NCBI GenBank assembly: GCA_024648695.1
Contig: JACAVV010000007.1
Span: 1-64,000, forward strand
DNA from: Nitrospina sp.
GTDB lineage: Bacteria; Nitrospinota; Nitrospinia; Nitrospinales; JACRGP01
Reading direction: 5' to 3'
DNA length: 64,000 nucleotides
The number at the start of each line of letters is the position of its first letter. Position 1 is the first letter of the stretch. Below, in pieces: positions 1,938 through 30,491 of this stretch. The notes beneath the pieces were generated by a model. It had not been told where the DNA came from. It worked only from the letters and a program-made list of their open reading frames with translations, and did no database searches. A program made the position numbers and the translations under genes.

Positions 1938-3074
1938 ATGTTAACTCTAAAAAAATTAAAGTATTCAGAGTTTGCTAATGACCCAAGGGAATGGTCCGTG
2001 GAGGAATTTGACCTATTTCATATCAATCTTCTAGTCGGGAAAAATGCTACAGGAAAAACAAGAACCCTAAATGTTATAAATAGTTTGGCAGATCTATTGA
2101 GCGGTCGCATCCGCTCTGTTTTTTTGGAAGGGACTTATAGTGCCCATTTTACAGACGGTCAAAAATCATATTATTTTGAATTAATAATTAAAGAACGTCG
2201 AATCGAGAGGGAAGTATTAAGTATCGATGGAAATAAACTCCTTGAAAGAGGTGAGGGAGGAAAAGGTGAAATTTTTGCCGCACAGTTAAAAGAAAAAATT
2301 AAATTCCAAACGCCGGAAAATGAGCTTGCCTCTGTTTCCCGTAGGGACACCATTCAGCATCCCTATTTTGAAATGTTAAATACATGGGGGCAGGGAACTT
2401 TACATTACAGTTTTGGGACAAGTTTAGGCAAAGATCAATTCATGGTAACGCGCTCTGATCCAGAGAAAACACCACAGTTTGACTTAAAGGATACTGGGAA
2501 AGTCGTCCCTTTTTTTAATTTGGGTCTAAAAGCCAAAGGTGAAAAATTTAAAGATGCGATTAAGGAAAAAATGAACTCAATTGGTTATGAAATTGAGGAC
2601 ATAGAAATAATAAAATTAAAAGGAAAAAATATATCTGGTGATTTGGAAGGTATTGGGGTCAAAGAAAAAGGCCTGAATACTATGGTTACTCAGATGGAAT
2701 TATCGCAAGGGATGTTCCGGGTTCTTTCACTAATTATTCAACTGGAATATTGTCGGCAAAAAACGGAACCAAGCCTAATTTTGATTGATGACATTGGAGA
2801 AGGACTCGATTTTGAAAGAGCGGTCTCCCTTGTAAAATTACTGGTCGACGAGGAAGCTAACCCCAAGTTTCAATTAATCATGGCAACGAATGATCGATTT
2901 GTTATGAATAATATTCCCCTGGAATATTGGTCATTAATTCAAAGAAATGGAAGCCATTGCAAGATTTTCAATCATAAAAATTCCGCAGAAAAGTTCGAGG
3001 AGTTCAAGTTTACAGGCCTTTCAAATTTTGATTTTCTCGCTTCAGATTTTGTCAATAAAGTTGTTCAAAATTAA
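1938..3074 (+). CDS. AAA family ATPase of a two-gene defence-like pair
   Basis: About 378 residues from the ATG at 1938; an in-frame TTG lies 30 nt upstream. The fold is ABC/SMC-like ATPase (AAA_15/AAA_21 type). The Walker A GKNATGKT is near residue 36, a signature-like ELSQGM segment is near 263, Walker B is LILIDDIGEGLD near 294, and the ATND switch region lies about 35 residues later. The stop codon overlaps the next start (TAATG). This order, AAA ATPase then TOPRIM-like DUF4276, is that of AbiL/RloA-RloB phage-defence modules (cf. the PARIS and OLD-Gabija logic of ATPase sensor plus TOPRIM nuclease). Base composition is AT-richer than in most neighbours, consistent with horizontal acquisition. 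Function is inferred from architecture. Confidence 0.8.
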   Translation: MLTLKKLKYSEFANDPREWSVEEFDLFHINLLVGKNATGKTRTLNVINSLADLLSGRIRSVFLEGTYSAHFTDGQKSYYFELIIKERRIEREVLSIDGNKLLERGEGGKGEIFAAQLKEKIKFQTPENELASVSRRDTIQHPYFEMLNTWGQGTLHYSFGTSLGKDQFMVTRSDPEKTPQFDLKDTGKVVPFFNLGLKAKGEKFKDAIKEKMNSIGYEIEDIEIIKLKGKNISGDLEGIGVKEKGLNTMVTQMELSQGMFRVLSLIIQLEYCRQKTEPSLILIDDIGEGLDFERAVSLVKLLVDEEANPKFQLIMATNDRFVMNNIPLEYWSLIQRNGSHCKIFNHKNSAEKFEEFKFTGLSNFDFLASDFVNKVVQN

Positions 3075-3772
3075 TGAACAAGCTTGCAATATTTGTTGAG
3101 GGGCAAACTGAGGCCCAATTTATATACAAGCTATTATTAGAAATATTTGGTGAAGCAAATATTTCAATTCAGTACGAACAAAAGGAAATAGGAAAAAAGT
3201 TTAATATTATTAGAGCACATAATGATATTAGTGAAACCGGTTATTACGTCCTAATAAAAGATTGTATGGGAGATGGTTCCGTTAAATCAACCTTACTGGA
3301 GGATTGGGAACGATTAAAAGATAGTGGTTATAAAAAAATTTTGGGTCTAAGAGATGTTTATAGTTTTAAGATTTCTGAAGCTCCAAAATTAAAGGAATCT
3401 TTTAATAAAGATCTTCCCGATTCAATCCCAACCAAAATTCTTTTAGCGATCCACGAAACGGAAGCTTGGTTCATTGCAGAAAATTCTCATTTTGGTCGAA
3501 TAGATTCAAGATTAACAAAAGAGATGATAGAAAGTGAACTTTCTATAAATGTGAATCCATCAAATGTCGAGAATATAGAACATCCGGCAAAAGTATTGAA
3601 TGAAATATACGGTTTGGTAGGTAAAAAATATGACAAGAAAAGGTACACCCTTCCCATCACTATTGAAAATTTAGATTATGGAGAACTTTATTTAAGACTC
3701 ACCAAGGATATCTCAAGCCTAAAGGAATTAATTTCTGAATTAGACCAATTCATTCGCCCTCAGTTAAATTAA
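3074..3772 (+). CDS. DUF4276/RloB-like TOPRIM-type protein
   Basis: A 232-residue protein translated with the upstream ATPase (1-nt overlap). The N-terminus carries the IFVEGQTEAQF strand-turn motif typical of DUF4276/RloB-like TOPRIM folds, where the Glu is a metal-binding candidate. The middle has LAIHETEAWF, matching the HExE segment of that family, and the usual D-x-D position is replaced by a looser acidic region. In AbiL-type systems this component is the presumed effector nuclease. No signal peptide or membrane segment. The terminal helix is ordinary. Likely role: toxic or antiphage effector triggered by the ATPase. Assignment to DUF4276 rests on the VEGQTE and HETEAW motifs only. Confidence 0.75.
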   Translation: MNKLAIFVEGQTEAQFIYKLLLEIFGEANISIQYEQKEIGKKFNIIRAHNDISETGYYVLIKDCMGDGSVKSTLLEDWERLKDSGYKKILGLRDVYSFKISEAPKLKESFNKDLPDSIPTKILLAIHETEAWFIAENSHFGRIDSRLTKEMIESELSINVNPSNVENIEHPAKVLNEIYGLVGKKYDKKRYTLPITIENLDYGELYLRLTKDISSLKELISELDQFIRPQLN

Positions 3773-4815: not shown

Positions 4816-5490
4816 ATGAATAATAAGATTGGGCCGCAACGCAATCCACAAATGGGGCAAAGGATACGAGCATTTCGGGGAAATTTAAATCAAAAGCAGT
4901 TTGCGGATATTGTTGGAATCTCGCAAGGTAATGTTTCCAAAATGGAAAAGGGCATGGTTCCTGATCCTAATATTCTTTTAAGAATTTCAAAGCTGGGAAA
5001 CACCTCTGTCGAGTTCCTTCTCACAGGCAAAAAACCGGAGCGGCTTTCGGTGGTTTCCTTTGGCAACAAACAGCTGCCGGAGGGTATTTCCCTCATCAGC
5101 AAACTGAAAGGTCCTGGAAGCGCCGGAACGGGAATCGAGCCGGATGACGAGGTGGATATCCAGTTGGCTTTCCGCGACGACTGGCTGGAAAAATTTGGCG
5201 GACCGGAAAAGCTGGTAGCCCTCGTTATTGAAGGCGATAGCATGGAGCCCACTCTGTTCGACAAGGATGTCGTGGTGGTGAATAAAAACATCACCGCTAT
5301 TCGTTCGGGCGGTGGGATCTATTCTCTGGTGTGGGACAACAAGCGGATGGTCAAACGGCTTCAACTCAATCCGCAGACCCATAGGGTTCGCGTCAAAAGC
5401 GACAGCCCCAGATATGACGATTTTGAGGTCGACCCTGAGACGATCAAAATCGAAGGCAAGCTGATCTGGTTTGGAAGGGAATTGAAATGA
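4816..5490 (+). CDS. LexA/CI-type repressor (XRE HTH + S24 peptidase)
   Basis: A 224-residue protein. Residues 12-68 form a helix-turn-helix of the XRE class (QKQFADIVGISQGNVSKMEKG). Residues 130-222 form an S24 self-cleaving domain with the nucleophile Ser in GDSMEPT and the general-base Lys in RMVKRL. A GSAGTG segment near residue 105 is a candidate Ala-Gly autocleavage site. Such proteins repress damage-inducible or prophage genes until RecA filaments trigger self-cleavage. The upstream gap holds an imperfect inverted repeat, TATTC-N6-GAATA (4776-4791), about 25 bp before the start, a possible auto-operator. It sits beside accessory genes, so it may be a relic or controller of a mobile block. 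Confidence 0.85.
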   Translation: MNNKIGPQRNPQMGQRIRAFRGNLNQKQFADIVGISQGNVSKMEKGMVPDPNILLRISKLGNTSVEFLLTGKKPERLSVVSFGNKQLPEGISLISKLKGPGSAGTGIEPDDEVDIQLAFRDDWLEKFGGPEKLVALVIEGDSMEPTLFDKDVVVVNKNITAIRSGGGIYSLVWDNKRMVKRLQLNPQTHRVRVKSDSPRYDDFEVDPETIKIEGKLIWFGRELK

Positions 5491-7243: not shown

Positions 7244-7966
7244 ATGGACCATATGACTGACGATTCGACAGAAATTACCAATTCGGGTTCTCTGTTCATC
7301 GTCAGTACGCCGATCGGGAATCTGGGTGACATCAGCTTCCGATCCATCGAAATTCTACAGTCAGTTTCAATCATTGCGGCGGAGGACACGCGTCGTACCA
7401 AAGTTTTGCTCAACCACTACCAGGTGGCCACTCCCTTGACCAGTTACCATAGTTACAATTCAGCGAAAAAGACTCCGGAATTGATTTCCCGGCTCCAGAA
7501 GGGGCAATCGATTGCCCTGGTTTCGGACGCGGGCACACCGGGAGTATCGGATCCGCTTTACCACCTCGTACGGTCGGCGGTCGATCACGGTATTCCGGTG
7601 ATCTCGGCCCCCGGTGCCTGTGCGGCGATTTCTGCGCTGACGGTTTCCGGTTTGCCGATGGACCGTTTTGTGTTCGAGGGCTTTTTGCCGGTCAAGAAGC
7701 GCCGCAAGAAAACCCTGGAAACGCTGGCGGAGGAACCACGGACGGTGGTGCTTTACGAGTCTCCGCACCGCATCGCCAAAACTTTGAAAGAGGTTTACGA
7801 GGTTTTCGGGGACCGCCCGGCGGTCATCGCGCGGGAAATGACGAAAATGCATGAGGAAATCATTCGCGGCTCGCTTTCCGAGCTGGCGAGTTTAAATAGA
7901 CCCCATTGGAAAGGCGAGATCACTCTGGTGATCGGTGGCCGGCCCAAACCGGGAAAGGAGAACTGA
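7244..7966 (+). CDS. rsmI: 16S rRNA (cytidine-1402-2'-O)-methyltransferase RsmI
   Basis: A 240-residue SAM-dependent enzyme that 2'-O-methylates C1402 in the decoding centre of 16S rRNA. The tetrapyrrole-methylase fold is plain: LFIVSTPIGNLGDIS at the start, AAEDTRRTKVLL, the SAM-loop ALVSDAGTPGVSDP (about residue 88), APGACAAISALTVSG, and FEGFLPVKKRRK. Length is close to that of the minimal family members. Its stop overlaps the start of the ParA-like ATPase (TGATG), so the two are translationally coupled. Confidence 0.95.
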   Translation: MDHMTDDSTEITNSGSLFIVSTPIGNLGDISFRSIEILQSVSIIAAEDTRRTKVLLNHYQVATPLTSYHSYNSAKKTPELISRLQKGQSIALVSDAGTPGVSDPLYHLVRSAVDHGIPVISAPGACAAISALTVSGLPMDRFVFEGFLPVKKRRKKTLETLAEEPRTVVLYESPHRIAKTLKEVYEVFGDRPAVIAREMTKMHEEIIRGSLSELASLNRPHWKGEITLVIGGRPKPGKEN

Positions 7967-9273
7967 TGCCTGTTGTATCCATCATTGGCCCCAAGGGCGG
8001 GATTGGCAAGACCACCTTGTCGATCAACACCGCCGCGGCGCTCACCCGCCTTCTGCCCCCACGCGACCGGGATAACCGGGTGTGTCTGGTGGATCTGGAT
8101 TTACGTTTGCCGACGATTTCGAGTTTGCTCGACAGTCATCCACACAACACCTTTTACGATTTGTTCGAAACTCTGGCGAACCAGACCTTTCAGGTAGATT
8201 TCCTGCGCAGTGTGTATCAAATCCTGTCGCGGTTCACGCATCATCTGGACGGCCTGATCCCGGAAACCGACAAGGGATTGGCTGAGAGTTTGTCCTTATA
8301 TAAGAATCTGAACACGGATCATTTCAATTTCACAGAACTTCCCTTTGGAGAAGCCTTGTACGAGTTGTTTCTGGAGCGCGGGCAAATCCGGATTCCGGCA
8401 GATATCCGCAAGCTGGTGCCGGTGCTGTTTCGCATCGATCTGTGCGAGTTCAAGGAGGCGCTCAACAAGCGGGAGGAAAACTCCATTCCGCGAGTGGATG
8501 AATACATTAAATATATTGAAGAGTATCAACTCTCCCTGATCGGTGGAGAGATTCCGATTCTTGGCAAGAAGTCGCATCGGCAGAGGATCAACGATCCCGA
8601 GTATTTGCTGGTGTTCCTGGACGTGTTGAGCGAGGTGTTCCGCCGTTTCGATTATGTGATTCTGGACACCCCCGCAGGTGGCGTCAATCACCTGTCGCCG
8701 CTGATGAATTCCATCGACCAGACTTTGTTCGTGTTCGATTTGAGCAACACGATTGCCGTGAACGGAAGTATCGACGCGATTCATTCCTTCATCGATTACT
8801 ACGAGGATTTTTATGAGGATTATCGGGAAGGTCGGTTGACCGGACTGGACAAGGCCCACGTCAATCGTCTGTTAGCCCAAAAGGGCGAACGGGCTATCGA
8901 GACTTCCTTGAGGAACAAGAAACTGAGCTTGTTGTTCAACCGTTTTCAGGAGCCGCGCGACCTGAACAAGGCGCTGGATCATTTGCGTGAGTATCTGGAA
9001 ACCCTCGACAAATGGCAGGGCTATAAAGACCGGATTCATATTGTGGGGATGTTGCCCCATCACAAGGTGATCAACATCACCAACAACCACGGCGCCATGT
9101 TTTACAAGAAGGAGCAGACTCTGACCGCTCACATGGATCAGGTGGCGGGCTGTTTGATCGAAAATCAGGAGCAATGTCCGACCTTAAGCCAAAGCAATCG
9201 GGACATTCTGGATTTTTTGAAATCCAAAGGCTGGTTGTCCTGGACGCGGGGTTTGGGGAAGGCGGCTGTTTGA
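7966..9273 (+). CDS. ParA/MinD-like ATPase
   Basis: A 435-residue P-loop ATPase, started at the ATG overlapping the rsmI stop and preceded by GGAAAGGAG. The deviant Walker A is KGGIGKTT near residue 9, with the A' strand CLVDLDLRLPTISSLL near residue 45 and FDYVILDTPAG near residue 225. A large insertion of about 120 residues separates A' from the switch-II region, and the C-terminus holds a helical segment, making it much longer than MinD or Soj. It is followed by a bactofilin and an L,D-transpeptidase, so a likely job is positioning envelope-synthesis or cytoskeletal components rather than chromosome partition. No parB-like partner is visible. Confidence 0.8.
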   Translation: MPVVSIIGPKGGIGKTTLSINTAAALTRLLPPRDRDNRVCLVDLDLRLPTISSLLDSHPHNTFYDLFETLANQTFQVDFLRSVYQILSRFTHHLDGLIPETDKGLAESLSLYKNLNTDHFNFTELPFGEALYELFLERGQIRIPADIRKLVPVLFRIDLCEFKEALNKREENSIPRVDEYIKYIEEYQLSLIGGEIPILGKKSHRQRINDPEYLLVFLDVLSEVFRRFDYVILDTPAGGVNHLSPLMNSIDQTLFVFDLSNTIAVNGSIDAIHSFIDYYEDFYEDYREGRLTGLDKAHVNRLLAQKGERAIETSLRNKKLSLLFNRFQEPRDLNKALDHLREYLETLDKWQGYKDRIHIVGMLPHHKVINITNNHGAMFYKKEQTLTAHMDQVAGCLIENQEQCPTLSQSNRDILDFLKSKGWLSWTRGLGKAAV

Positions 9274-9324
9274 ATTTTTTTAGCCATTAATAATGGGAAT
9301 TAATCCTTTAAATAATAGAGACCT

Positions 9325-9849
9325 ATGTTTAAAAAGCTAAAAGTATTGTCGGAAGAAGAACTTGAATTCATGCTAGAAAAGGATCCGCAGGGGGTGTACC
9401 TGAAGGAAGTGCGGGAAAAATTTTTCTGGATCGTTGAGAAAATGCACCAGAACCGGGACCAGTGCTCCTGGTACGAACGCCGTTTGCTGAAAAAATTCCA
9501 GAGTATGCAACCCGGCCTTCTCATCGGCCCTAAAGCGATCATCAAAAATCCCATCAAGGCCGAACGCATCATGACCGTGGAAGGCCTGGTCAAAGTTCAG
9601 ATTCAAGTCATCCATTGGCTTCACGTCACGCCCAGCGGTTGCATCGAAGGCGATGTGTGGGCAGGATCGGTCATTTGCGAAGGGCGAATTGAAGGCACCG
9701 TACATGCAGAAAACAGTGTCGAGATTTTGCCCGGCGGCCGTATACTGGGTGAAGTCGATACCCCGTCCCTGCAAGTTGCCGAAGGCGCCTTTTTCGATGG
9801 CCGGTGTCTCATGCAAAAAAATCCCGTTCCAGCAGGCCACATCGAGTGA
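9325..9849 (+). CDS. Bactofilin with an extra N-terminal domain
   Basis: A 174-residue protein. Residues about 65-165 are a bactofilin beta-helix: short repeats with G-x-(I/V)-x-G turns (GCIEGDVWAGSVICEGRIEGTV...GGRILGEV), which polymerises without nucleotide to form cytoskeletal scaffolds. Residues 1-60 are not part of the usual family. They carry a KDPQGVYLKEVRE motif and a YERRLLKKF end, and match the first 60 residues of the next gene. The protein lies between the ParA-like ATPase and the L,D-transpeptidase, suggesting a scaffold that recruits the wall enzyme. An intrinsic terminator overlaps the stop codon. Confidence 0.85.
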   Translation: MFKKLKVLSEEELEFMLEKDPQGVYLKEVREKFFWIVEKMHQNRDQCSWYERRLLKKFQSMQPGLLIGPKAIIKNPIKAERIMTVEGLVKVQIQVIHWLHVTPSGCIEGDVWAGSVICEGRIEGTVHAENSVEILPGGRILGEVDTPSLQVAEGAFFDGRCLMQKNPVPAGHIE

Positions 9850-9860
9850 GCCTGCTTTTT
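9831..9860 (+). terminator. Intrinsic terminator at bactofilin 3' end
   Basis: AGCAGGC (9831-9837) pairs with GCCTGCT (9850-9856) and is followed by a T-run. The stem straddles the bactofilin stop codon. The L,D-transpeptidase start lies about 180 bp downstream, so that gene may have its own promoter. Confidence 0.6.
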
Positions 9861-10038
9861 CCCCTCGCCTCCCTCCTGTTTTTCGTTTAAAATTCTCCGC
9901 TTTCGGGCTACAATCGCTTTACCGGATGTTGAAACCTCTGGTTCTCAATAACATCCGTCTGCGTTTTCTTTCCCAGAACGAATATTAATCGTTCCCGTTC
10001 CTGTTTTTTCAATGACTGAAGTAATTCATGGGATTTGA

Positions 10039-11199
10039 ATGGCACTCAAACAACTCTCCGTATTAACTATCACCGAGTACAACCTGCTCGCCAATAAGGA
10101 TCCGCAGGGAAGTTACGACCGCAGTACCCGCGAGCATCTGGACAGCATCATCGTCAAATTGCGCAATCCCAGAAGGCCGTTGTCGCCTTTGGAAAACCGG
10201 TTGTATCAAAAATTCGAGCATGCCGAGTTCAAAGCGCTGGAGGCCAAGGAAAAACGGGTCAACCAGGAAGTCAGACGATACCGCCTGTCGAGTGGCGTCC
10301 AGCGGACCCTGAGCATTGCCGCTTCGGTGATCCTGACCCTGGCTTTGATCGGTGTGTTGACCTACCAGTTTGTGCTTTCAGCATCCGCTCGCAAAGAGGT
10401 GCAGTTGGCCTGGTACTCGGGATTGAACCGGGCGGGACTGGTCTCTAAGGAAGATTTTTTAAAGATTCGCCTGAACCTGGAAGTGGCCATTCGCAAACTG
10501 GAGGAAACCCAGAACGAGAATAAGGAATTAACCGCTCTGGTCGACCGTATGATTGTCAACAACAAAAAGAAAGAGAACCTGAAAGGAATCGTAAAAAAGA
10601 TCTATCAGGACCCGCGCACACAATACATCACCAAAAACGGCGAAGTTTTATTACGGTTTGAAGGCAGGGAAATCGCGCATTACAAGTCTGATCCGCAACT
10701 ATGGTACATGGTTGGAATTTTGGAAACCGGCGTGATCCGCCTGTACTATAATGATGAAGAACTGATGGATATCGAAACAATATTTGGCCGCAAAGGCGAG
10801 GAAACGCCGCTGGGAGAATATAAAATCCAGAATAAGGTGTACAAACCCACCTGGTACAAAAAAGAGCCGGTGGACGGCAAAATAAAAGTGCGCGCGATTC
10901 CCTTTGGAGACACCGACCACGAAATCGGGTACTGGTGGCTGGGCCTCAACCGGCTGGGCGATCCGGTTCCGGGAAGTTATGGCATACATGGAGTCAATAC
11001 CAGTAAGGCCAACGAATTTTTCCGCAAAAGTTTTGATTGGCGAAGCGGCAGTGCCGGTTGTCCCAACGTTCAGGAGTGGTTTCTCGATTTTCTTGCCAAA
11101 GTGGTGCCTCTGGGCACACGGGTGAGCGTGGTGCAGGAGGACCGCTGGATGAATGTCAACAACGACCGCTCAAAAGCGCGAAAGCCATCGTCGGCATGA
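10039..11199 (+). CDS. Membrane-anchored L,D-transpeptidase (YkuD) with the bactofilin-linked N-domain
   Basis: A 386-residue protein. Residues 1-60 repeat the domain found at the front of the bactofilin (NKDPQGSY...RE...P..NRLYQKFE). A membrane helix covers about residues 92-112. A coiled coil (about 145-172) leads to a YkuD domain (about 230-365) with GRKGEETPLGEY, YGIHGVNT and the catalytic SGSAGCPNV (Cys nucleophile in S-x-G-C). The usual Arg after the Cys is replaced by Pro-Asn. YkuD enzymes make 3-3 peptidoglycan cross-links or attach proteins to the wall. Topology would place the shared N-domain in the cytoplasm, where the bactofilin is, and the enzyme in the periplasm. Confidence 0.85.
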   Translation: MALKQLSVLTITEYNLLANKDPQGSYDRSTREHLDSIIVKLRNPRRPLSPLENRLYQKFEHAEFKALEAKEKRVNQEVRRYRLSSGVQRTLSIAASVILTLALIGVLTYQFVLSASARKEVQLAWYSGLNRAGLVSKEDFLKIRLNLEVAIRKLEETQNENKELTALVDRMIVNNKKKENLKGIVKKIYQDPRTQYITKNGEVLLRFEGREIAHYKSDPQLWYMVGILETGVIRLYYNDEELMDIETIFGRKGEETPLGEYKIQNKVYKPTWYKKEPVDGKIKVRAIPFGDTDHEIGYWWLGLNRLGDPVPGSYGIHGVNTSKANEFFRKSFDWRSGSAGCPNVQEWFLDFLAKVVPLGTRVSVVQEDRWMNVNNDRSKARKPSSA

Positions 11200-11245: not shown

Positions 11246-12661
11246 ATGAAAAAACCCTGGGGTGGACGCTTTAAAGAGGCGACAGACGATATCATGGTCC
11301 GCTTTTCCGCATCGATTGGCTATGACCAACGCCTATATGCTTACGATATTCAGGGCAGTATCGCTCATTGCAAAATGTTGGCCAAGTGTAAAGTCATTAA
11401 ATCCACCGAAGCGAAAAAGATAGTTTCAGGACTACAAAAAATTTTAAAAGAATTCGAATCCGGGACTTTCGTTTGTGATGAAAAGCTCGAAGACATTCAT
11501 ATGAATATCGAGCGAAGGTTGATCGACCTCATCGGTCCTGTGGGGGGCAAGCTCCATACCGGACGCAGTCGAAACGATCAAGTCTGCCTCGACTTCAGGT
11601 TGTTCCTGCGCGCTGAAACCGAAGCCATTGTCGAAGGGATCACTCGCCTCAGCAAGGCCTTTTTGGCGCAGGCCAGAAAAAATGTGGATACCATCGTTCC
11701 CGGCTACACGCATTTGCAAAGAGCGCAACCGGTGCGATTGGCGCATCACCTGCTGGCATATGTTGAGATGCTTTTACGCGACCGCGACCGATTTCTGGAT
11801 GCTTACCCGCGCATCAATGTCATGCCTCTGGGATCTGCGGCACTCGCGGGGACAAATTTTCCTCTCGACCGCGAATACACCGCAAAACTGTTGGGTTTCC
11901 CGGAAATTTCACACAACAGCATGGACGCCGTAGGCGACCGTGATTTCGCGATAGAGTTTTGTTCTGCCTCAGCGATTCTGATGGCGCACCTTAGCCGGTT
12001 TTGTGAAGAGATCATATTATGGTGCAGTAGCGAATTCGATTGGGTGGAATTGAGCGATGCCTTCACTACCGGAAGCAGTATCATGCCGCAAAAGAAGAAT
12101 CCCGATGCCGCTGAATTGACGCGTGGAAAAAGTGGAAGGGTGTTTGGCAATCTGATGGCTTTACTCACCCTGCTGAAATCCTTACCGATGGCCTACAATC
12201 GCGATTTGCAGGAAGACAAGGAACCCGTTTTCGACACCGTCGATACGGTAAAATCCGTTTTGGATGTGATGACGGGAATGTTGAAAACCGCCCGGTTCAA
12301 AAAACCCGCCAAAGCGGATCTGGAAGCAAAAGGTTTCCTGACGGCGACCGATATGGCGGACTATCTGGTTTTGCAGGGAGTTCCCTTTCGCGAGGCGCAT
12401 GAGATCACCGGAAAAGCAGTGGCTTATTGCCTTGAGCAGAACAAACCGCTGGGGGAACTGGGAATGGAAGAATTAAAAACCCTGTGGCCCCGGTTTCGTG
12501 AAGACGTTTATGGTTACCTGCAACTGGAATCGTCTGTAGACCGCAAAGACGTTTATGGGGGACCCTCCAAACGACGCGTCCAGGCGCGCATCAATCAAAT
12601 CGATAAGAAACTGAAAACCAGCCGATCCGCATTGTTTAAAACGAAAGGCAGAAGGCCATGA
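11246..12661 (+). CDS. argH: Argininosuccinate lyase
   Basis: 471 residues from the ATG at 11246; a longer start would run into the previous gene. It splits argininosuccinate into arginine and fumarate, the last step of arginine synthesis. Hallmarks are the N-terminal KPWGGRF, GRSRNDQV, the HLQRAQPV region, the DAVGDRDF segment, and the fumarase-superfamily signature GSSIMPQKKNP containing the catalytic Ser. Length is normal. Its stop overlaps the next start (ATGA), coupling it to the small lipoprotein. Confidence 0.97.
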   Translation: MKKPWGGRFKEATDDIMVRFSASIGYDQRLYAYDIQGSIAHCKMLAKCKVIKSTEAKKIVSGLQKILKEFESGTFVCDEKLEDIHMNIERRLIDLIGPVGGKLHTGRSRNDQVCLDFRLFLRAETEAIVEGITRLSKAFLAQARKNVDTIVPGYTHLQRAQPVRLAHHLLAYVEMLLRDRDRFLDAYPRINVMPLGSAALAGTNFPLDREYTAKLLGFPEISHNSMDAVGDRDFAIEFCSASAILMAHLSRFCEEIILWCSSEFDWVELSDAFTTGSSIMPQKKNPDAAELTRGKSGRVFGNLMALLTLLKSLPMAYNRDLQEDKEPVFDTVDTVKSVLDVMTGMLKTARFKKPAKADLEAKGFLTATDMADYLVLQGVPFREAHEITGKAVAYCLEQNKPLGELGMEELKTLWPRFREDVYGYLQLESSVDRKDVYGGPSKRRVQARINQIDKKLKTSRSALFKTKGRRP

Positions 12662-15849: not shown

Positions 15850-16881
15850 TTGACAATCAGGGTATTGATAAGAAGGTCCCGTTTGTTTTTGAATAAAGTT
15901 ACTAAAATTTTATTTTTCCTGCATTGTGCTTTCGTTTTATTGGGCTCATCCGCTTATGCTGAACGAAAGGTCAACTGGAAAGCAGTGAATCCTCTTTTGA
16001 AGGATTCTGTTCCAATAGCCCAATCAGGCAATCCTGATGACGAAACCGAATGTCTTCTTTGCCATAAGGGATATATCAAGGCATTCGGTAAAACGGTTCA
16101 TGCCAAAGCGCTCACAGCCCGGTTTGGCGCAGGGAAACTGGGAACTTTGTGCGAAACCTGCCACGGTCCCCTGAGCGGACACCTTAAGGAAATGGGCATC
16201 GGAAAGGGTGCGGGCAAGAAATCGAAGGATCCCCGTTTCATGGTTTCCTTCAAAAGGCATCCGGCTCCCGCTCCCGCGCGCAATGCGGTTTGCCTGCAAT
16301 GCCACCAGGGTTCCCAGGGTATGATGTGGAAGGGAAGCGCTCACGAAATGGGAGGCGTTACCTGCAACTCGTGCCATTATGTTTCAAGAAAAACCAAAAA
16401 ACACAAAAGACTGATCCTTCAGGATCCCAAAAAAGTCTGTTACCAATGCCACCGCGGCATACGCGCTAAAATGAGGCGGACCTCCCACATGCCTCTTTCC
16501 ACTGACAAATATGGGTGCCAGAGTTGCCACAATGCGCATGGTGGACCTGGACCGGCATTGTTAAACCGCTCTTCCGTGAACGAAACCTGCTATCAGTGCC
16601 ATCAGGAAAAACGCGGACCTTATATTTTCGAGCATGCACCGGTGCGTGAAAATTGTATGAACTGCCATCGGCCCCATGGTTCCAGTTTTATTCCCATGCT
16701 GAAACAAAAACCTCCATTTCTTTGCCAGCAATGCCACATGAACGTGTTTCATCCCAGCAATGTTTATGATGGCCAAAGCGTTCGCAACCGAAGCAGTTAT
16801 ATTGGACGCAAAGGTTGTGTGAATTGCCACAGCCTGATTCACGGCTCCAACCACCCCTCCGGTGCGAGATTTCAACGATGA
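15850..16881 (+). CDS. Decahaem c-type cytochrome, MtrA/DmsE family
   Basis: 343 residues from a TTG (a TTG 39 nt further on is also possible), with a signal peptide ending near SSAYA. Exactly ten CxxCH haem motifs are spread over residues 70-335: CLLCH, CETCH, CLQCH, CNSCH, CYQCH, CQSCH, CYQCH, CMNCH, CQQCH and CVNCH. Size and haem count match MtrA/DmsE/PioA, the periplasmic wire that inserts into an outer-membrane barrel. Its stop overlaps the start of the MtrB/PioB gene (ATGA). No outer-surface MtrC-like multihaem gene is adjacent. It could carry electrons outward (mineral or partner reduction) or inward (Fe(II) or other extracellular donor oxidation). Confidence 0.93.
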   Translation: MTIRVLIRRSRLFLNKVTKILFFLHCAFVLLGSSAYAERKVNWKAVNPLLKDSVPIAQSGNPDDETECLLCHKGYIKAFGKTVHAKALTARFGAGKLGTLCETCHGPLSGHLKEMGIGKGAGKKSKDPRFMVSFKRHPAPAPARNAVCLQCHQGSQGMMWKGSAHEMGGVTCNSCHYVSRKTKKHKRLILQDPKKVCYQCHRGIRAKMRRTSHMPLSTDKYGCQSCHNAHGGPGPALLNRSSVNETCYQCHQEKRGPYIFEHAPVRENCMNCHRPHGSSFIPMLKQKPPFLCQQCHMNVFHPSNVYDGQSVRNRSSYIGRKGCVNCHSLIHGSNHPSGARFQR

Positions 16882-29643: not shown

Positions 29644-30491
29644 GGCCCTGAAAAAAGGGTGATTTCCCCAGGAAGTCCCTGATTCAGGTAAATTTTTTAT
29701 ACGGGAATAGTTTGAAGTTTCCATTTTCGGCACCATTGAAAAAGAAACCATAAGAAAGCCCGGAGGAGCTTTCTGATATTGTGGCCTGAGCAACATAGCA
29801 GGGCGTTGATCCGGTTCCCTTCTTTTCCAAGCAGGTAGTTCCTTCCCATACATCCATCGTTTTTCATGTGTCCGACCACCGGTTCAATGGCCGATCTGCG
29901 TTTCAATCATTTTCTCAGCGAAGGCTTTTTTTTCCTCTTGCCCCGATTCCCGATGTGCACCCTGGGATTGCCTTGGCTATTGTGGCCCCGGTATCCCAAG
30001 TCAACGAAAACTTCTTTTGTTCTACGTTCTGTCAGGCGTTCAGCCTGTTCTACTGCTTGGTTCAAGGTATGTCCATCATAAGGATTGCCATGCAAAGCAT
30101 GAATCCCCACCACAAAAGTATTGCCAGTAAGGGTTTTCCATCCATTGACTCACCACTTCCTCATCACTCAACCCATGCGCATGTTTCAGGTAGTGCAAGC
30201 CCACCATCAAACGGGTTGGCTTCGCTGGGCGACTCTGTTCGCTATAAAGCGCTCCAAACGTCTTATCGAATTCGGACCACTCGATCACCGACGATAAACG
30301 GACCAAAGGGTGCTTCTCGTCACACAAAAAAATCCAGGTTCACTTCGAATAAATTCTGTTGAGGATCTCGCGCTTTCGCTTGAATAAAATCACCAGCTTT
30401 CGAAGGTTTTTCAACAAGTTTTGGCGATTTTACTATACTTAAAATCCCGGTTCAGCCTTTATTAACGCGCTTATAATACTTTTTCAGGGAC
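29644..30491 (-). mobile_element. Degraded IS5-type insertion sequence
   Basis: Ends GGCCCTGAAAAA (29644) and, inverted, GTCCCTGAAAAA (30491) form near-perfect terminal repeats. Inside are pieces of an IS5-like DDE transposase on the minus strand: the N-terminal piece at about 30330-30130 (MVGLHYLKHAHGLSDEEVV, NPYWQYFCGG), then an internal deletion, then GIHALHGNPYDGHTL and EVFVDLGYRGHN, then in another frame SAIEPVVGHMKNDGCMGRN and INALLCCSGHNIRKLLR. About 850 bp remain, less than a complete element. It lies 2 bp after the stop of the sigma-54 activator. No clear target duplication. Confidence 0.75.

Follow-up and report, generated by a model that had tools for sequence, protein, structure and literature searches.

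We investigated a stretch of 64,000 nucleotides (hereafter, the window) from Nitrospina sp. (GenBank assembly GCA_024648695.1, contig JACAVV010000007.1, positions 1 to 64,000 of the forward strand), which lies on contig C23 of our genome set in a genome of 4.2 Mb (G000). Five genes follow one another at the site under study, all on the + strand, namely, rsmI, the gene of a ParA-like ATPase (ParA3), that of a bactofilin (BacN), that of an L,D-transpeptidase (LDT) and argH (Table 1). No terminator-like sites were found on the + strand from the start of ParA3 to argH. BacN and LDT begin with the same domain of about 60–66 residues (the N-domain), which we tentatively regard as a docking domain that connects a cell wall enzyme with an ATPase.

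Table 1. Genes, domains and segments of the rsmI–argH region, numbered from the first letter of the window
Feature	Position	Strand	Basis
rsmI (16S rRNA methyltransferase, TP_methylase)	7244..7966	+	Pfam TP_methylase 107 bits; upstream flank, conserved neighbour in relatives
ParA3, MinD/FleN/ParA-type ATPase, 435 residues	7966..9273	+	Pfam AAA_31/CbiA; PDB best match FleN; 43 orthologues
BacN, whole open reading frame, 174 residues	9325..9849	+	Pfam Bactofilin over residues 66–161
N-domain of BacN, residues 1–66	9325..9522	+	BLASTP to LDT copy, profile tests, AlphaFold2 three helices
Bactofilin beta-helix core of BacN	9520..9807	+	PF04519 69.3 bits; Foldseek to BacA 2n3d
LDT, whole open reading frame, 386 residues	10039..11199	+	Pfam YkuD over residues 234–364
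N-domain of LDT, residues 1–67, predicted cytoplasmic	10039..10239	+	BLASTP, AlphaFold2, profiles; in 45/45 intact LDTs
Predicted transmembrane segment of LDT, about residues 90–110, N-in/C-out	10306..10368	+	Hydropathy maximum residues 89–109; basic N-side flank EKRVNQEVRRYRLSSGVQR
YkuD catalytic domain of LDT, residues 234–364	10738..11130	+	PF03734 57.3 bits; conservation in 45 orthologues
argH (argininosuccinate lyase), start taken at MKKPWGG	11246..12661	+	Pfam Lyase_1 277 bits; conserved downstream flank in relatives

The N-termini of BacN and LDT were aligned without gaps, with 22 of 58 residues identical (BLASTP E=2e-12). An earlier note, made from the letters of this DNA, had matched the first ~60 residues of the two proteins by eye, and profile analysis confirmed the likeness, each segment finding the family of the other. 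The strongest homology test was a cross-profile search, with profiles built without any common alignment. A profile of 45 LDT N-domains alone recovered 40/40 BacN N-domains (median E 1.6e-16, against E 1.1 for the best non-member), the reverse profile recovered 45/45 LDTs (median E 7.5e-21), and the best non-member in both searches came no lower than E=0.09. Comparison of the independent BacN and LDT family profiles with hhalign gave 99.8% (E=5.5e-29). AlphaFold2 predicted three helices at matching residue numbers, at residues 10–17, 27–41 and 49–58 in the LDT domain (predicted local distance difference test, pLDDT, 88.8) and at residues 10–18, 27–42 and 49–58 in whole BacN, in which the beta-helix follows (pLDDT 92.6; predicted template modelling score, pTM, 0.82). 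The common signature is K-L-x-V-L-T-x2-E-Y-x2-L-x2-K-D-P-x-G-x-Y-D-x2-T-R-E-x-L-x3-I-x-K-L-x(10)-E-x6-F-x2-A-x-F, and Glu52 (LDT numbering) does not vary in either copy. The likeness of the two N-termini is beyond chance, and they are homologous domains.

The N-domain appears undescribed, in agreement with the same note, which did not recognise it from the bactofilin or YkuD families. No family in Pfam or NCBIfam covers the N-terminal segment, and PHROGs gave nothing below 0.02. Foldseek searches with the N-domain yielded no convincing fold match in the PDB (best E 1.0, J-domains, template modelling score 0.34) and no match among viral models (best E 1.4). The best profile match to a PDB sequence, a helix of colicin Ia (E 0.08), was rejected as chance. 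A survey of 14,337 bactofilins described only short N-terminal motifs and rare transmembrane helices (PMC12448750), and no structured bactofilin N-terminal extension recurring on a wall enzyme was found in the open-licence literature searched. The N-terminus of BacN is predicted to be a folded three-helix domain, not a short disordered tail with a membrane-targeting peptide. As a separate observation, residues 1–25 of the N-domain (e.g. window 10039–10113), with the pattern L-T-x2-E-Y-x2-L-x2-K-D-P, resemble the phage tail tip motif PF24243 (Phage_tail_C, a 26-residue model). Nine of 56 N-domains matched this model at E<=1, mostly weakly (best 3.9e-5), and a single N-domain scored in detail reached 12.7 bits against a cut-off of 23.7, with only the first ~20 residues covered. 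This resemblance, which may stem from common origin or from convergence, was treated as a short common motif or chance.

The family membership of BacN rests on its core, because bactofilin flanks vary. The core scored 69.3 bits with the Bactofilin model (PF04519; cut-off 27.9), is all-beta in the AlphaFold2 model and was matched by Foldseek to Caulobacter BacA (2n3d) with a template modelling score of 0.89 (normalised on BacA), a root mean square deviation of 1.6 and E 1e-3; we infer that BacN would form polymers. Elsewhere in G000, a bactofilin domain was observed in a frame of ~683 residues, far longer than usual bactofilins (contig C56, ~29772–30059; L002/L061). LDT matched YkuD (PF03734) at 57.3 bits (cut-off 23.4) over profile positions 15–146 of 146, and its scores with the named NCBIfam subfamilies were all under cut-off. 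His317 and Cys341 (IHGVN...SAGCPN) are conserved in at least 97% of 45 orthologues, from which a catalytically active LDT is expected. One hydrophobic helix with a basic flank on its N-terminal side would, by the positive-inside rule, place the LDT N-domain in the cytoplasm and the YkuD domain in the periplasm. The predicted layout of LDT consists of a cytoplasmic N-domain, one transmembrane helix, a helical periplasmic stalk and the YkuD domain, and the N-domain of BacN is likewise predicted to be cytoplasmic.

ParA3 keeps its motifs in 43 orthologues, including Walker A KGGIGKTT with the signature Lys, DLDLRLPT and DTPAGG. It scored over the Pfam cut-offs of AAA_31 and CbiA; for its subfamily, every named NCBIfam model (MinD, ParA and BcsQ) and Pfam MipZ/BcsQ remained under cut-off. 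The best PDB sequence match was FleN (2.6e-5, residues 2–68), and the MinD-type protein 1g3q, a cell division inhibitor, was also among the closest. The C-terminal tail is conserved and has a slightly amphipathic character (moment 0.64 against a 95th percentile of 0.61), which is a weak hint that it may contact the membrane. ParA3 thus resembles MinD/FlhG (FleN) in its closest PDB sequences, its intact ATPase motifs and a C-terminal tail that, like that of MinD, is weakly amphipathic, but differs from MinD/FleN in its size (about 438 residues), its long conserved middle region without a match in them and the position of its gene beside that of LDT.

Carriers of the N-domain were found in 48 of 77 genomes of the phylum, all in the order of the window (48/64; other orders 0/13). 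All matches at E 0.001 fell in frames of the size of BacN or LDT, of which G000 has just these two, and the search of the 77 genomes for further proteins with the domain gave none at this threshold. C-terminal helical stretches of membrane proteins of ~710 residues had been candidates for a third carrier (E 0.002–0.04); they were gone at E 0.001 with a deeper profile and were attributed to chance. When 84,980 species genomes were scanned with a pattern-based search (14-row alignment), which is the sole measure of reach beyond the phylum and can miss distant versions, 33/33 confirmed loci were named Nitrospinota, save one 'Nitrospirae bacterium'. In a 64-column tree, the N-domain copies of BacN and LDT formed the two sides of one branch (Shimodaira–Hasegawa-like approximate likelihood ratio test, SH-aLRT, 96), which places one duplication before the radiation of the order. 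Gene conversion between the copies was rejected on the basis of this one supported branch and of the identity between LDT and BacN N-domains, which is not higher within a genome (0.382) than between genomes (0.385); no exchange after the split of the copies is seen. One genome bin (G025) was observed with two copies of the whole module (L136 and L137, contigs C107 and C138), one of which lies at zero distance from another species (G019) in the argH/rsmI tree, and this bin is probably mixed.

The presence and absence of the three genes were compared across the genomes. ParA3 and intact LDT were each present in 44 genomes, with both in 43; in the two mismatches (G058 and G039), a contig end truncates the gene. 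On the tree of argH and rsmI, ParA3 and LDT changed seven times each, always together, and their contrasts agreed on 4/4 well-supported branches. BacN changed six times on this tree, largely independently of ParA3/LDT. BacN alone was kept, with the flanking ParA3 and LDT gone, in four genomes of two clades (G014/G043 and G031/G042), and the co-loss of ParA3 and LDT as a single deletion is ruled out, because the BacN gene between them stayed in these genomes. ParA3 was gone and LDT was reduced to fragments in G012 and G057; rsmI and argH were present and all three module genes absent in G005, G008 and G053. BacN was absent, with ParA3 and LDT kept and the N-domain well conserved, in nine genomes (G024, G035, G044, G050, G037, G048, G055, G059 and G064), which represent at least three or four independent losses of BacN; no bacN remnants were found in the ParA3–LDT gaps of G035 and G050. 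This loss pattern suggests that ParA3 and LDT form the functional unit from which BacN is separable, and that the obligatory partner of LDT is ParA3 rather than BacN.

Sequence conservation and rates of change were also compared. The mean column conservation of LDT is 0.73 in the N-domain, 0.81 in the catalytic domain and 0.61 in the linker and transmembrane part, and the N-domain is under strong constraint. In distance-matrix tests with 28 genomes, in which partial r was corrected for species distance, the distances of the LDT N-domain were correlated with those of ParA3 (partial r 0.59; 0.48 with the catalytic domain also corrected, p 0.0002). No residual co-variation was found between the LDT and BacN N-domains (partial r 0.07, p 0.27), and the value for the BacN N-domain and ParA3 was −0.24. 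The BacN N-domain changes fast in G014/G043, where ParA3 and LDT are lost (0.44 against 0.23 in the core).

The proposed coupling, in which a scaffold or ATPase in the cytoplasm is connected with a wall enzyme in the periplasm, is of a known kind and would work like that of LmdC with its bactofilin; the domain looks new and the enzyme is a different one, but the category is not new. The M23 endopeptidase LmdC is recruited by the bactofilin BacA in Hyphomonas neptunium and Rhodospirillum rubrum, a precedent for the placement of a periplasmic wall enzyme by its cytoplasmic N-terminal tail (PMC10945521), and Caulobacter bactofilins recruit PbpC (PMC12448750). The LmdC–BacA system shares with the present locus the adjoining genes and a bitopic enzyme with a cytoplasmic N-terminal part, one transmembrane segment, a coiled-coil periplasmic part and a C-terminal catalytic domain. 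However, LDT is a YkuD transpeptidase without an M23 domain rather than an M23 hydrolase, and its cytoplasmic part is a three-helix domain of ~60 residues, whereas that of LmdC is a short tail with a beta-hairpin; moreover, the bactofilin here bears the same domain and is dispensable, and a ParA-type ATPase belongs to the module. In Myxococcus xanthus, the bactofilins BacNOP hold chromosomal ParA through the ParB-like adaptor PadC on a C-terminal extension (PMC5703909). A ParA-family ATPase is associated with bactofilins in both cases, but the Myxococcus system includes neither a wall enzyme nor an N-domain of this kind, and its ATPase is the chromosomal ParA; no PadC-like gene was seen in the rsmI–argH interval of the loci read. 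Like other YkuD enzymes (ErfK/YcfS/YnhG type; LdtD and LdtX of Caulobacter), LDT carries the His and S-x-G-C motif, but it differs from them in being bitopic and in having an N-domain in the cytoplasm. In Caulobacter, LdtD and LdtX are not concentrated at the base of the stalk, which is marked by bactofilin (PMC6373972).

We favour, at a probability of roughly 0.4, the reading that the N-domain is a cytoplasmic docking domain that couples the membrane-anchored LDT to the MinD/FleN-like ParA3, with BacN as an auxiliary protein that has a paralogous copy. ParA3 is preferred as the partner because of the loss pattern and the LmdC and PadC precedents, and the observations underlying this reading are homology, predicted fold, sequence-derived topology, preserved catalytic motifs, gene order and co-loss. 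The rsmI–argH interval would then contain three genes that form a module for envelope patterning, restricted to one Nitrospinota order, with ParA3 and the membrane-anchored LDT as its core pair. The LDT N-domain would bind ParA3 in the cytoplasm, ParA3 would place or regulate LDT, and 3-3 cross-linking, or another YkuD reaction, might thereby occur at chosen sites. BacN, in which the copy of the docking domain would be rigidly joined to a polymer-forming core, would add a scaffold on the same partner and be dispensable. The bolder proposal that an undescribed adaptor domain couples a ParA/MinD-type ATPase to a periplasmic LDT for ATP-driven placement of cross-links, and was duplicated onto a bactofilin to bring a filament to that ATPase, is doubtful.

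Three findings weigh against ParA3 docking as the role of the N-domain. The independent contrasts on strongly supported branches number four only (sign test p 0.125). The periplasmic stalk of LDT tracks ParA3 more closely still (r 0.71), and the correlation therefore links the two proteins, not the N-domain specifically. The BacN N-domain is well conserved in G031/G042 without ParA3 or LDT (0.148 against 0.222 in the core), which argues for another use of the domain at least there.

First among the alternatives, and itself unlikely, is the model of the earlier note, in which the LDT N-domain docks on that of BacN (homotypic or heterotypic binding) and thereby brings the cross-linking enzyme to the bactofilin scaffold. 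The same domain in adjoining genes speaks for this pairing, and domains derived from duplicates often keep the ability to pair. Divergence is also faster in the LDT N-domain of genus g9, which lacks BacN (ratio of N-domain to catalytic divergence 2.37, against 1.0–1.75 in BacN-containing groups), and bactofilins recruit wall enzymes such as LmdC (PMC10945521) and PbpC (PMC12448750). However, the LDT N-domain stayed intact in the three to four lineages that lost BacN, the ratio is unrelaxed in the other BacN-less groups (0.89 and 1.54), and the N-domains of LDT and BacN display neither co-variation nor pair-specific similarity. Loss of BacN is followed by no consistent relaxation of the LDT N-domain, and this indirect evidence would speak against a strict dependence of LDT on BacN. 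The docking idea is partly right with the partner probably misassigned: the two proteins have an undescribed, predicted cytoplasmic domain in common and are linked, in a conserved way, to a ParA-type ATPase, whereas docking of LDT on BacN as the job of the domain is not supported, given the nine BacN-less genomes, the four genomes that keep BacN alone and the absent co-variation.

A further alternative, also improbable and ranked behind this pairing, is that the two copies have one binding partner in common that does not belong to the module, such as the adjacent ParAB and plain bactofilin, the divisome or the membrane surface. It accounts for the persistence of each copy alone and for the BacN N-domain kept in G031/G042. 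Candidates for such a partner are close by: in most relatives, the gene order is etfA-rsmG-parA-parB-bactofilin-rsmI-ParA3-BacN-LDT-argH (flank names by sequence resemblance), in which the bactofilin just upstream has 130 residues and no N-domain. In G000 itself, however, the bactofilin-parB-parA-rsmG-etfA block is on another contig (C8, L060 5381–9654), whereas it abuts rsmI in most relatives; the parA-parB-bactofilin block is split from rsmI in the lineage of the window. The strict co-retention of ParA3 and LDT would also be unexplained unless ParA3 acts separately. Independently of this question, the order as a whole conserves the plain bactofilin of 130 residues directly 3' of chromosomal parA-parB (L043, L049, L056, L057 and others), an adjacency that recalls the bactofilin–ParABS link of Myxococcus. 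The least probable alternative is self-association or capping, in which the N-domain dimerises LDT and packs on the beta-helix end of BacN to limit or shape polymerisation: the BacN model is rigid over both parts (pTM 0.82) with the domain leading directly into the first beta strand, the subunits of growing bactofilin filaments join end to end by N–N and C–C core contacts (PMC12364344), and LDT has a helical periplasmic stalk, but the LDT copy lies ~20 residues before the membrane helix, where capping of a beta-helix is meaningless.

Other genes of the window were also recorded. An AAA_21 ATPase gene overlaps a DUF4276 gene (1938–3772, +), and both match PADLOC candidate models (AbiLi/AriA-like and HEC-01A; HEC-01B); as a pair, they are candidates for anti-phage defence or abortive infection. 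Near this pair, a gene with HTH_3 and Peptidase_S24 (4816–5490, +) resembles LexA/CI-like self-cleaving repressors. Downstream of a sensor kinase lies the gene of a multihaem cytochrome c in which the CXXCH motif occurs several times (Paired_CXXCH_1; 15850–16881, +).

The recruitment of wall hydrolases and penicillin-binding proteins by bactofilins is known; L,D-transpeptidases work on the far side of the membrane from a cytoplasmic scaffold or ATPase. At the present locus, which also encodes an ATPase, a single small domain ties a scaffold and an L,D-transpeptidase together, and losses in nature already part the roles, with the enzyme following the ATPase and not the scaffold. These roles can be tested directly with fragments of ~70 residues. 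If the favoured reading is true, the module would be a wall-patterning system specific to Nitrospinota, which are major marine nitrite oxidisers with a cell biology that has been little studied.

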